A stretch of 64,000 nt of DNA, from assembly GCA_037200845.1 (NCBI GenBank), contig JBBCGQ010000001.1, positions 2,965,001-3,029,000 on the forward strand, given 5' to 3'. Shown here piece after piece: positions 6,616-57,720 of the stretch (the stretch's first letter is position 1; each line of letters begins with the position of its first letter). The position numbers and the translations under genes were made by a program. This DNA is from Bauldia sp. (lineage in GTDB: Bacteria; Pseudomonadota; Alphaproteobacteria; Rhizobiales; Kaistiaceae). Below the pieces are notes generated by a model. It saw only the letters and a program-made list of their open reading frames with translations, was not told the DNA's origin and did not search any database.

Positions 6616-7368
6616 ATGCCGCCGCACGTCGCCGCCATCTACCGCTACCCGGTCAAGGGCCTGTCGCCCGAGCCGCTGCCCGCGGTGACGCTGACGCCCG
6701 GCGAGACGATCCCCTACGACCGCGCCTACGCCATCGAGAACGGCCCCTCCGGCTTCGACCCGGCCGAGCCGAAGACGCTGCCGAAGATTCTGTTCCTGAT
6801 GCTGATACGGAACGAAAGCCTCGCGGAGCTCCACACCAGCTTCGACGACGCGACCTCCGTGCTCACCATCCGCAAGGACGGCGCCATCGCGGCGGAGGGC
6901 AACCTCGCCACCGAGGCAGGCCGCCGCACCATCGAGGCATTCTTCGACGCCTTCTCGGCCAGGGATCTGCGCGGCCCGGCGAAAGTGCTGACCGCTCCCG
7001 GCTTCTCCTTCTCCGACACCTCGAAGAAGGTCGTGTCGCTGATCAACCTCGAGACGGTGCGCGCCATCGGCCGCGAGATCGGCGCCGACGTCCACCCGCT
7101 CCGCTTCCGCGGCAACCTGCACGTCGAGGGAATGGATGCCTGGCAGGAATTCGCGCTGGTCGGCCAGACGCTGATCGTCGGCGGCGTCACCTTCAAGGTG
7201 ACGAAGCGCATCGACCGCTGCGCCGCCACCAACGTCGATCCGCTAACGGCAAAGCGCGACCTGAAAATTCCGGTCAGCCTGCAACGCGCCTACGGCCACG
7301 CCGACTGCGGCGTGTATCTGAAGGTCGTCTCAGGTGGCACGGTGACGGTCGGCGATCAGATCAGGTAG
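6616..7368 (+). CDS. MOSC domain-containing protein
   Basis: About 250 residues. It opens with the beta-barrel MOSC N-terminal motif IYRYPVKGL and carries the characteristic C-terminal block with VTKRIDRCAATNVDP, whose cysteine is the conserved MOSC residue that binds sulfur or molybdenum cofactor in YiiM and mARC-type proteins. Proteins of this type handle molybdenum cofactor or reduce N-hydroxylated compounds; the exact reaction cannot be read here. Translation is taken from the ATG at 6616. The gene ends convergently toward the DUF4167 gene across a repeat-bearing gap. Confidence 0.85.
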   Translation: MPPHVAAIYRYPVKGLSPEPLPAVTLTPGETIPYDRAYAIENGPSGFDPAEPKTLPKILFLMLIRNESLAELHTSFDDATSVLTIRKDGAIAAEGNLATEAGRRTIEAFFDAFSARDLRGPAKVLTAPGFSFSDTSKKVVSLINLETVRAIGREIGADVHPLRFRGNLHVEGMDAWQEFALVGQTLIVGGVTFKVTKRIDRCAATNVDPLTAKRDLKIPVSLQRAYGHADCGVYLKVVSGGTVTVGDQIR

Positions 7369-55006: not shown

Positions 55007-55660
55007 TTACCGTTTCGTTTTCCGCCCGGCCAGCACCTGCAGCACCTCGGCGATGGTTTCCTCGTGCAGCGCCGGGGCGTTGTCCATGTTGAGGTGGCCG
55101 TATTCCGGCCGGTCCTCGATGTCGATGACGCCGCCGAAGCCGTAGCCGCCGGTGACCGCGATGTGCGCGCCGATCGCCGCCTTCGAGCGCAGGTTGATCA
55201 CGTGCTTTACGTTTGCCGGGACGACCACCGGGTCGGTCGAATCGTAGAGCACCATCAGCGCCACCGGCGTGCTCGTCTTGGCGAGTTCCCGCGCCATGAG
55301 CACGGCGCCGAGCACGCCCCACGAGTGGCCGACCAGAACGATCGGGGCGTGGTTGGCGACATAGCGCTGGCGCGCGTCGGCGGCGAGCTCGCGCCACTGC
55401 GCGTGGCCGTAGGAGCGGGCATCGACGCCGCGCGCCCTGAGCTTCGCGGCGAGCTCGTCCATGCCGGTCGAGAAGATGTTGAAGCCGCCGCGCAGGAGAT
55501 AGACCTCGCCGGCACCGACGAGCGGCCCGGTGGGCGCGATATCGGCAAGCTTCTCCTTGCCGGTGATCTCCGGCAGGTCGGCGCAACCGCCGAGCGCCAG
55601 TACGCCGGCTAACGTCAGCGCGGCGCAAATTGCCTTAACTCGGGATACACTTACGGCCAT
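55007..55660 (-). CDS. Exported alpha/beta-hydrolase-like lipoprotein (paralogue 1)
   Basis: 217 residues. Lipobox ALGGC (Cys26). The nucleophile elbow is GHSWG (Ser113); Asp140 in LYDSTD and His189 in YGHLN are correctly placed to complete a Ser-Asp-His triad. It is clearly paralogous to the next gene: shared blocks are YLLRGGFNIFS/YLMRGLANIFS, KLRARGV/KLQARGV, GHSWG/GHSFG, KHVINLRS/KHLINFYE and GHLNMDNAPALH/GHLNIEKNAALH. A short thioesterase- or lipase-like hydrolase of unknown substrate. Start ATG at 55660; an in-frame ATG at 55672 is also possible. Confidence 0.82.
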   Translation of the reverse strand: MAVSVSRVKAICAALTLAGVLALGGCADLPEITGKEKLADIAPTGPLVGAGEVYLLRGGFNIFSTGMDELAAKLRARGVDARSYGHAQWRELAADARQRYVANHAPIVLVGHSWGVLGAVLMARELAKTSTPVALMVLYDSTDPVVVPANVKHVINLRSKAAIGAHIAVTGGYGFGGVIDIEDRPEYGHLNMDNAPALHEETIAEVLQVLAGRKTKR

Positions 55661-55728
55661 CCCGGCAACCATACCCGAAAACCGCCGCAAAGAGCCAATG
55701 CGGCGGAACGCGATTCCTGGGGGAAAAC

Positions 55729-56319
55729 CTAGTGTCCGAGAACGCCCAGCGTCGCCGCGATCGCCTTGGCGTGCAGCGCGGCGTTCTTCTCGATGTTGAG
55801 GTGGCCGATGGTCGTATCGGTCTTCGACAGGTCGATGTTGTCGAGCCGGCCCTTGAAGCCCGGCGGCGCCTCGAGCTTGCGGCCGTTGCCGGCCGATTCG
55901 TAGAAATTGATCAGGTGCTTGATGTTCTTGGGCACCGGGATGTTGCTGACCACATCGAACTCGACGACCAGCGCGACCGGGATGTTGTGCTTGGCGAGCT
56001 CCGCCGAAAGCAGCAGCGTCGCATCGGCGCCGAACGAATGGCCCATGACGACGACCGGCAGGGCGTTCTTGTCGGTCTTGTAGCGCGCGACGATGTCGGC
56101 CGCGATCTCCGGCCAGCTCGAATAGTTGAGCACCACCGAGTTGACGCCGCGCGCCTGCAGCTTGGTGTTCAGGTCGTCGAGGCCGAGCGAGAAGATGTTG
56201 GCGAGGCCGCGCATCAGATAGATGCTGCCCTTCGGCGTCTTCGCCGACGCCTCCGACAGGAGCGGGTAGATCAGCGCCAGCGAAGCCAGCAGCGCAATCA
56301 CGGTGCGCTTGAAAATCAT
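55729..56319 (-). CDS. Exported alpha/beta-hydrolase-like protein (paralogue 2)
   Basis: 196 residues. Ordinary signal peptide rather than lipobox (VIALLASLALIYPLLSEASA). Triad candidates Ser95 (GHSFG), Asp122 (VEFDVV), His173 (IGHLN), at the same spacing as in paralogue 1. The ATG at 56319 follows GGGGGAATTCCC. The gene lies 68 bp upstream of its paralogue on the same strand, an arrangement that implies a tandem duplication followed by divergence in targeting (lipoprotein versus soluble). Substrate unknown. Confidence 0.83.
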   Translation of the reverse strand: MIFKRTVIALLASLALIYPLLSEASAKTPKGSIYLMRGLANIFSLGLDDLNTKLQARGVNSVVLNYSSWPEIAADIVARYKTDKNALPVVVMGHSFGADATLLLSAELAKHNIPVALVVEFDVVSNIPVPKNIKHLINFYESAGNGRKLEAPPGFKGRLDNIDLSKTDTTIGHLNIEKNAALHAKAIAATLGVLGH

Positions 56320-56440
56320 GGGAATTCCCCCGGGATCGCCCCGACCCGTACGATATGCACGCCACCGACCGGCACAAGCCGAAATGGGCCGAAACCGCCC
56401 GATTCGTCGAAATTGTCGCACTCTTACAACACCTTGCCGC

Positions 56441-57028
56441 TCAGTAGAGCCACGGAACGATGCGCGCCGTGCGCCGCATATAGGCCCGGTATTCATCGCC
56501 GAAGGATTCGGTCATCAGCGCCTCCTCCTTGTCGATCCGGTAGAAGAACAGCACGGCGATGCCGACGATGCCCGACAGCCCGGCGACCCAATTGGGCAGC
56601 AGCAGCGCCTGGGCGATCGCCAGCAGCAGGAACGACGAATACATCGGGTGGCGTACGTATCCGTACAGGCCGTCGGTGACCAGCTCATGCCTGGTCCGCG
56701 TTTCCAGCGTCACCGACCAGTTCCGCCCGAGCTGCTTGTGGGTGACGCGGAACAGCGCCAGCGCCGCGATCAGCACCACGAGGCCGAGCCAGGTCAGCGG
56801 CGGCTGGAACGGATAGTCGGCAAACGCCGGCTGGCCGCTTACGACGTAAATGGCCGGCACGACGAACTGCCCGATGGCCGAGATGGTGAGGGCGACGCGG
56901 TCGCCAGTGCCCCCTGCCGACCGGGCAACGCCGTTCTTGGCGGCATGGCGCTGGAAGGGATAGCGGATCGCGTACCAGGCGACGATTCCGAGAAGCCAGA
57001 TTATCTTGGCGGCCACGACTGTCATCAT
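56441..57028 (-). CDS. ICMT/PEMT-type membrane methyltransferase
   Basis: 195 residues with five or so helices and the C-terminal signature of isoprenylcysteine carboxyl methyltransferase-like proteins: LGRNWSVTLETRTRHELVT, DGLYGYVRHPMYSS, and further on RIDKEEALMTESFGDEYRAY. The RHP and the Glu-rich terminal helix form the SAM site. In bacteria the methyl acceptors are mostly unknown. Both ATGs at 57028 and 57025 are possible starts. It is divergent from the CAP lipoprotein and codirectional with the hydrolase pair. Confidence 0.9.
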   Translation of the reverse strand: MMTVVAAKIIWLLGIVAWYAIRYPFQRHAAKNGVARSAGGTGDRVALTISAIGQFVVPAIYVVSGQPAFADYPFQPPLTWLGLVVLIAALALFRVTHKQLGRNWSVTLETRTRHELVTDGLYGYVRHPMYSSFLLLAIAQALLLPNWVAGLSGIVGIAVLFFYRIDKEEALMTESFGDEYRAYMRRTARIVPWLY

Positions 57029-57150
57029 GGGCAGTGACTAGCCGATGCGCGCCGCCGCTGCCAAGCGCCGATTGGCCCTCTTGCGCTTCCCCCAATTCCG
57101 ACGCATTGCACCGGGAAATCTCCCTTCCCTCACCGATTGACGGACCTTCG

Positions 57151-57720
57151 ATGCGCGCCCCTGCCCTCGCTTTCGCCTTTGCCGCCGCCGTGGCGCTCGC
57201 CGCCTGCACGACCGGCGGCTCGTCGGGGGCGAACTTCCAGACCGCGCTCGCCACCAAGGCGGGCACGGTAGACGCCGCCGAGGCCGCGGCCCTGATCTCG
57301 CAATACCGCCGGGCGAATGGGAAATCGGCCGTGGCCGTCGATCCGACGCTGATGGCGATCGCGCAAGTGCACTCCGATCGCATGGCGGCCGCCGATACGA
57401 TGACGCATGTGCTGCCGGGCGAAGGCAGCTTCCTTGATCGCCTCAAGGCCGGCGGCTACCAGGCCGGCATGGCGGCCGAGAACGTCGCGGTCGGCCAGAC
57501 GACGCTAGCCGAGGTGCTGCAGGCCTGGCAGAATTCGCCGAGCCACAACGAGAACCTGCTCGAGGAGCACGTCGATGAGATCGGCATCGCGGTCTCGATC
57601 GCCTCGGGCGGCAAGTACAAATATTTCTGGACGCTGGTGCTCGGCAAGAAGCGGCCCGTCGGCATGGGCGGCCCGGCCGGCATCACGACCGAAAACGGCA
57701 CGACGCTGACGATCAACTAG
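57151..57720 (+). CDS. CAP (SCP/PR-1) domain lipoprotein
   Basis: 189 residues. Lipobox LAAC at about residues 16-19 followed by TTGGSSG. The CAP domain has ISQYRRANGKSAVAVDPTLMAIAQVHSDRMA (in parts), the signature HSDRMAAADTMTH, ENVAVGQ and WQNSPSHNENLL, which contain the conserved His and Glu residues of the family. Function in bacteria is unclear; suggested roles include proteolysis-like or sterol/lipid binding activity. Start ATG 57151. Confidence 0.9.
   Translation: MRAPALAFAFAAAVALAACTTGGSSGANFQTALATKAGTVDAAEAAALISQYRRANGKSAVAVDPTLMAIAQVHSDRMAAADTMTHVLPGEGSFLDRLKAGGYQAGMAAENVAVGQTTLAEVLQAWQNSPSHNENLLEEHVDEIGIAVSIASGGKYKYFWTLVLGKKRPVGMGGPAGITTENGTTLTIN

Follow-up and report, generated by a model that had tools for sequence, protein, structure and literature searches.

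Two adjacent genes on the minus strand of the window, by which we mean the whole 64,000-nucleotide stretch of DNA that was analyzed, encode a pair of predicted exported hydrolases. P1 (P0001; 55729..56319) specifies a putative exported minimal alpha/beta hydrolase of 196 amino acids and P2 (P0002; 55007..55660) its predicted lipoprotein paralogue of 217 amino acids; P1 comes first in the reading direction, 68 bp separate the two, and the start and stop codons of both were verified. No terminator was listed within 55007–56441, in scans whose overall yield was about that of shuffled sequence. The products are 42% identical over 166 amino acids in a sequence comparison (E = 1e-38), and each carries a GHSxG motif, an Asp 27 residues past the Ser, and a late His. 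The corresponding minus-strand codons are those of Ser95 (56035–56037), Asp122 (55954–55956), and His173 (55801–55803) in P1 and of Ser113 (55322–55324), Asp140 (55241–55243), and His189 (55094–55096) in P2. A preliminary description had proposed a tandem pair of reading frames with common catalytic blocks at 55007–56319, and this reading holds: both frames are present, and the putative triad positions are conserved across the family. The source genome is a single 3.15-Mb contig, 99.5% complete, and P1 and P2 were the only family members found in it.

The two proteins differ in predicted targeting, as had been described. By inspection, P1 begins with a predicted Sec/SPase I-type signal (MIFKRTVIALLASLALIYPLLSEASA, followed by K; residues 1–26, A-S-A site), and P2 has a predicted lipobox, LGGC, whose last residue is Cys26 (codon 55583–55585, minus strand) and which was also recovered by a regular expression. 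The predicted mature proteins have about 170 (P1) and 192 (P2) amino acids. The earlier figure of about 190 mature residues fits P2 but not the smaller P1, and the size class, then called unusually small, is already known from the lipase of Bacillus subtilis: chains of 179–180 amino acids are among the structural matches of P1, one of them titled "a minimal alpha/beta hydrolase enzyme."

Directly upstream of P1 and on the same strand lies a gene for an ICMT-family integral membrane methyltransferase of 195 amino acids (56441..57028), which passes both PF04140 (62.3 bits, cut-off 24) and NCBIfam NF040696 (259.3 bits, cut-off 160). The link of the small hydrolase to a methyltransferase of this family, and to a third protein that we call MEMB, is conserved and had escaped the preliminary description.

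Fold and Active Site

Structures of both proteins were modeled with AlphaFold from a 61-row alignment. The mean pLDDT is 89 for the P1 model, where 151 of 196 residues reach at least 90, and 79 for the P2 model, where it drops to about 65 across residues 161–180, ahead of His189. Six strands are predicted for P1, in the order beta3-alphaA-beta4-alphaB-beta5-Ser95-alphaC-beta6-Asp122-beta7-beta8-His173-alphaF, and no large lid insertion is visible. The nucleophile elbow would be GHSFG at 93–97 in P1, where Ser95 stands right behind strand 89–94 of the model, and GHSWG at 111–115 in P2. The acid comes directly after beta6 in both models (Asp122 behind strand 117–121 and Asp140 behind strand 135–139), a layout found in type I thioesterase domains. 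The strand and helix order of both models, the His past the last strand, and Z scores that reach 15.1 for P1 and 15.4 for P2 against known hydrolases agree with the alpha/beta hydrolase fold; judged by topology, P1 is a predicted minimal alpha/beta hydrolase with a Ser-Asp-His arrangement. As far as topology shows, the modeled chains appear to bring the three residues together, as the preliminary description had expected.

Among 1,000 chains ranked by Foldseek, the best structural match of P1 was TesA (Z = 15.1, 150 residues, rmsd 3.0); for P2, likewise among 1,000, it was the Pks13 thioesterase (PDB 5v3w; Z = 15.4 over 159 residues, rmsd 3.0), in a tie with 2qjw, an uncharacterised hydrolase, and with others. 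The Pks13 triad, which we take to be S1533-D1560-H1699, has the same Ser–Asp spacing of 27 residues as P1 and P2, and the likeness to this domain and to PF00975 (Thioesterase) consists in the alpha/beta-hydrolase fold and the acid after beta6. In contrast to the 270-residue Pks13 domain, P1 and P2 are predicted to be exported, are single-domain proteins about 80–100 residues shorter, have no large lid insertion in the model, and score under the PF00975 cut-off (15.0 and 20.2 bits, cut-off 26.4). Of 61 family members, 50 nonetheless match this profile with an E value no higher than 0.01 (best 7.3e-9), and a weak alignment (E = 0.29–0.30) pairs Asp140 of P2 with the Asp in a segment of the pikromycin thioesterase. 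B. subtilis lipase A (1i6w/1isp) resembles both models in size class and minimal core (Z = 14.1–14.6), but it is 11–15% identical and its acid sits after beta7, not after beta6 as modeled in P1 and P2.

The structural neighbors of P1, 50 rows at Z = 13.6–15.1, comprise thioesterases, carboxylesterases, lipases, a cutinase-like protein, and feruloyl esterases. Rows within 1 Z unit tie and include carboxylesterases and lipases, so the neighbors give the fold and not the substrate; a substrate class read from them was rejected, activities being mixed within 1.5 Z units. Membership in the class 3 lipases (PF01764, Lipase_3) was also rejected, with 17.3 and 12.0 bits for P1 and P2 under a cut-off of 22. 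Where the preliminary description found no evident family name, there is one at superfamily level: P2 passes PF12697 (Abhydrolase_6; 28.1 bits, cut-off 26.3; P1 not listed). P1 passes no Pfam cut-off. Both the fold and the methyltransferase family are already known.

Twelve positions (R37, G38, S44, G46, D48, G93, H94, S95, G97, D122, N138, and H173) were invariant in all 54 rows of an alignment that contains P1 and P2 and was gathered through P1 or the family profile and no motif scan, the profile itself having been built largely from motif-selected sequences. In a set of 132 rows, Ser95, N138, and His173 were invariant throughout; the Ser in the other 78 rows proves little because those loci were found through GHS. 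The family-wide conservation of the putative Ser, Asp, and His positions is far beyond chance. Asp122 is replaced by Ala in 11 of the 132 homologues (L066, L070, L077, L080, L082, L084, L085, L087, L088, L090, and L093), with Ser and His retained. All 11 lie in cassettes of the kind described below, and they belong mostly to one clade of Brucella/Ochrobactrum, Rhizobium, Aureimonas, and Ahrensia; judging from the alignment, their catalytic acid is either elsewhere or missing. In eight of these 11 proteins, two Arg residues stand together near the start of the signal, a twin-Arg-like pattern by a crude rule.

A Recurrent Gene Cassette

We picked related loci by the pattern GHS[LF]GA and used the best 80 of at least 92. 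Clustering of their open reading frames gave two recurrent neighbors of the hydrolase, the ICMT-family methyltransferase and MEMB, a membrane hydrolase-like protein of about 410 amino acids. By profile searches, all three genes were present in 33 of these best 80 loci, and one further locus, at a contig edge, had the methyltransferase and hydrolase without MEMB; the hydrolase was found without either partner in 46, among them loci truncated where a contig stops. The order in the 33 loci was most often co-directional MEMB-methyltransferase-hydrolase (18 loci, and 2 more with two hydrolases) or convergent (9); more rarely, the hydrolase lay between divergent MEMB and methyltransferase genes (3) or was divergent from MEMB (1). 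The existence of four gene orders, five if the doubled hydrolase is counted apart, argues for selection on the linkage and not for an inherited order. Three Bradyrhizobium cassettes (L068, at 6671–7213, L073, and L083) have an extra gene between the small hydrolase and the methyltransferase, a GDSL-type hydrolase by Pfam in L068.

A profile of the cassette methyltransferase, built from 17 rows with the window gene itself among them, gave the latter 306 bits in the source genome and the next paralogue 88. It matched the archaeal Ma MTase 4a2n end to end (E = 6.1e-53) and the eukaryotic ICMT 5vg9 in part (E = 2.6e-16). To our knowledge, bacteria do not prenylate CaaX proteins, and the name "isoprenylcysteine" therefore tells no substrate.

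Hydropathy was computed for 12 of 20 aligned MEMB proteins, and in 12 of 12 the hydrophobic segments lie within residues 112–225; all 20 rows share a GxSxG-like motif and invariant downstream Asp and His residues. Of two MEMBs scanned, that of L080 passes the Abhydrolase_6 cut-off at 28.1 bits and that of L054 gave no match. An hhalign comparison of MEMB with the small hydrolase aligned just 39 columns (probability 92.7) and gave no support for homology past the nucleophile region. MEMB occurs in most cassettes and not in the source genome, where a profile search at E = 1 found none; because this profile does detect the gene in three relatives from the family of the source genome, it is probably truly absent there. 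At the place that MEMB takes in co-directional cassettes elsewhere, the window has a gene for a CAP-domain protein (57034–57720, plus strand; PF00188, 72.7 bits), divergent from the methyltransferase gene. A phage-defence module was considered and rejected, as P1, P2, the methyltransferase, and the MEMB of L054 had no PADLOC matches at E = 0.01.

Across 249 Rhizobiales genomes, the hydrolase was found in 30 and MEMB at E = 1e-10 in 42, with both in 19; 23 of the 42 genomes with any MEMB match were without the hydrolase. Cassette-type MEMB, at 360 bits or more, was present in 20 genomes, 19 of which also had the hydrolase. Likewise, 20 genomes scored at least 260 bits for the methyltransferase, 17 of them with the hydrolase and 15 of those with it within 2 kb (both thresholds were chosen after the lists were seen, and the distances were calculated manually from the match positions). 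The MEMB match stops 34–97 bases upstream of the methyltransferase match in 17 of these 20 methyltransferase genomes; the source genome (G000), G157 (contig end), and G187 are the exceptions. Fisher tests by genome gave P values, inflated by relatedness, of 7.6e-20 for MEMB at 360 bits, 5.8e-10 for MEMB at E = 1e-10, and 1.3e-15 for the methyltransferase; by genus, which corrects for relatedness only partly, the values were 1.3e-10 for MEMB and 3.9e-7 for the methyltransferase. The locus and genome counts are not independent because the 80-locus set and the whole-genome set overlap (L038 and L149 are, judged by length, the same contig). The hydrolase can also occur without the methyltransferase, since 13 of the 30 hydrolase genomes have none at 260 bits and 46 of the 80 loci show neither partner.

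The small hydrolase family is found mainly in Rhizobiales. In a draw of 289 genomes from the class, at least four of them from the order when the source genome is counted, the source genome was the only one with the small hydrolase. Two records in a plasmid collection have it, and in an annotated plasmid record the trio is labeled lipase, protein-S-isoprenylcysteine O-methyltransferase, and lipase. No paper on the set of hydrolase, methyltransferase, and MEMB genes was found in the open-licence literature, judged by titles and abstract beginnings.

Tandem Copies and Anchoring

Hydrolase pairs within cassettes also occur in L033, Bauldia (L038), and Phreatobacter-type genomes (L169–L171). For the phylogeny of homologues, a check proposed in the preliminary description, the tree was reduced from 134 to 132 rows by omitting L102 and the contig-end fragment L097, both short. 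The tandem paralogy of P1 and P2 stands. Their placement as sisters was allowed (p-AU = 0.498 with 25 rows and 0.9 with 132 rows), with both on long branches and no starred support. A single clade of the five proximal copies was rejected (p-AU = 0.000176), and so was one of the five distal copies (p-AU = 4.5e-6), which argues that doubling inside the cassette arose more than once. On the same grounds we rejected an ancestral tandem pair with fixed roles.

The difference in anchoring had been taken to suggest a division of labor on the same or related substrate. We compared ten adjacent pairs from about six lineages (the window, L011, L012, L013, L018, L021, L033, L038, L051, and L170), leaving out Bradyrhizobium-type pairs about 4–7 kb apart. 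Both members were lipoproteins in four pairs, all Phreatobacter-type, and non-lipoproteins in five, and the window pair was the only split one. On a quick 132-row tree, itself shown not to be the best tree, the lipobox state changes at least five times; the calls were made by a regular expression and a start-codon heuristic, with L059, L103, and L109 relabeled as lipoproteins by eye. With split targeting in 1 of 10 adjacent pairs, division of labor by targeting does not generalize: anchoring is predicted to change within pairs, yet the pairs do not conserve a split into one lipoprotein and one soluble member. Two Bradyrhizobium-type second copies (L018:2299–3258 and L021:555–1049) have a C-terminal extension of about 90–100 residues. 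The L018 extension holds a C-terminal LysM domain (28.2 bits, cut-off 20.9), on its sequence another way in which members of a pair would differ in anchoring.

Proposed Role of the Cassette

We consider the evidence evenly poised on the reading that P1 and P2 are exported serine hydrolases forming the periplasmic arm of an envelope cassette, together with an ICMT-family methyltransferase and, mostly, MEMB, and that they act on amphiphile esters. What the sequences and models show is the tandem paralogy, the predicted fold topology, the conserved Ser-Asp-His positions, the predicted export signals, and the linkage to the methyltransferase gene. Gene linkage alone does not show a common substrate.

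A precedent is the ICMT-family enzyme RhlM of Paraburkholderia, proposed from deletion mutants and methionine labeling to make rhamnolipid methyl esters. It is reported to methylate the rhamnolipid carboxylate, and in producers of these esters it is encoded together with rhlA, downstream of that gene (PMC11069360). The article describes ICMT-family methyltransferases as widespread in bacteria, with RhlM the only one whose substrate is known and the functions of the family otherwise unexplored according to its authors (PMC11069360). The cassette resembles RhlM and RhlA in that an ICMT-family methyltransferase gene lies beside one for an alpha/beta-hydrolase-type enzyme, and its substrate would be an amphiphilic carboxylic compound, as that of RhlM is (PMC11069360). 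It differs in that the hydrolase is predicted to be exported, whereas RhlA works as a synthase in the cytoplasm, and in having MEMB as a membrane protein of its own.

In the envelope-cassette reading, the Ser would attack the carbonyl of an ester, less likely of a thioester, activated by His173/189 and Asp122/140, and the oxyanion would be held close to the invariant Arg37-Gly38 loop. A candidate substrate is a carboxylic, amphiphilic lipid, free or esterified, that crosses the inner membrane. The ICMT-type enzyme of the inner membrane would methylate, and thereby cap, the amphiphile carboxylate; MEMB, where present, would act at the membrane; and P1 and P2 would then, in the periplasm, cleave either the methyl ester or an acyl ester, with acyl transfer as a further option. 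P1 would act as a soluble enzyme and P2 at a membrane face, probably at the outer membrane because an Ala follows the lipobox Cys (the +2 rule of enterobacteria for lipoprotein sorting).

It is unlikely, in our assessment, that P1 and P2 are instead generic exported lipases or esterases scavenging environmental lipids, with the methyltransferase neighborhood incidental and the pair a gene-dosage duplication. The 46 of the best 80 loci without a cassette partner fit such enzymes, as do the label "lipase" of one annotated relative, the weak Lipase_3 matches, and the lipases among the structural neighbors. Four orders of the same three genes and the genus-level co-occurrence are, however, hard to square with incidental synteny, and an invariant polar loop (R37, S44, and D48) with no lid insertion visible in the model is unlike classical lipases.

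We think it quite improbable that the two proteins are acyltransferases or transesterases, like RhlA or a thioesterase-type cyclase, building an ester lipid that the ICMT-type enzyme caps. The joint encoding of rhlA and rhlM in rhamnolipid methyl ester producers speaks for this arrangement (PMC11069360). So do the Asp-after-beta6 layout and the structural matches to synthase thioesterase domains, but P1 and P2 carry predicted export signals. Because acyl-CoA and acyl-ACP donors are confined to the cytoplasm, acyl transfer in the periplasm would require a lipid as the donor.

Least credible, and in our view very unlikely, are periplasmic protein deacylases (thioesterases) working on acylated envelope proteins, P1 on soluble targets and P2 on membrane-bound ones: APT1 and SOBER1 are among the structural neighbors of P1 and most family members match the Pfam Thioesterase profile, but the neighbors span many unrelated activities, which makes the match unspecific, and both proteins stay under the Thioesterase cut-off.

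The reading of an envelope cassette acting on amphiphile esters has a bolder form, to which we give little credence. The cassette would be a bacterial counterpart of the eukaryotic ICMT/methylesterase pair: an envelope lipid or a secreted amphiphile would have its carboxylate methylated by the ICMT-type enzyme of the inner membrane, P1 and P2 would undo or remodel this from two places in the envelope, and MEMB, in genomes that have it, would work at the inner membrane. If true, a reversible methyl-ester cycle would tune the charge of a Rhizobiales surface lipid. More broadly, the cassette of hydrolase and methyltransferase is a lead on the role of bacterial ICMT-type methyltransferases: it adds a second, readily assayed enzyme near the same putative substrate, and the question can then be put to the test through lipidomics of strains that each lack one gene. 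Two hydrolases without a family name are moreover placed in a definite set of genes, whose tandem copies and anchoring have changed repeatedly.

Related Loci with Other Gene Content

More distant MEMBs (214–352 bits) were seen in L159–L164 and L166–L168; these genomes have no small hydrolase, and the stretches read have no methyltransferase. L165 has MEMB and the methyltransferase and no hydrolase. Legionella-type loci (L103–L105 and L107–L112) hold relatives that are 29–31% identical to P1, most of them with a lipobox; L108, on a contig labeled Bacteroidetes that may be mis-binned, groups inside them. The Legionella-type relatives adjoin not a methyltransferase but an FMO-like flavoprotein (PF00743, 278 bits in L112).
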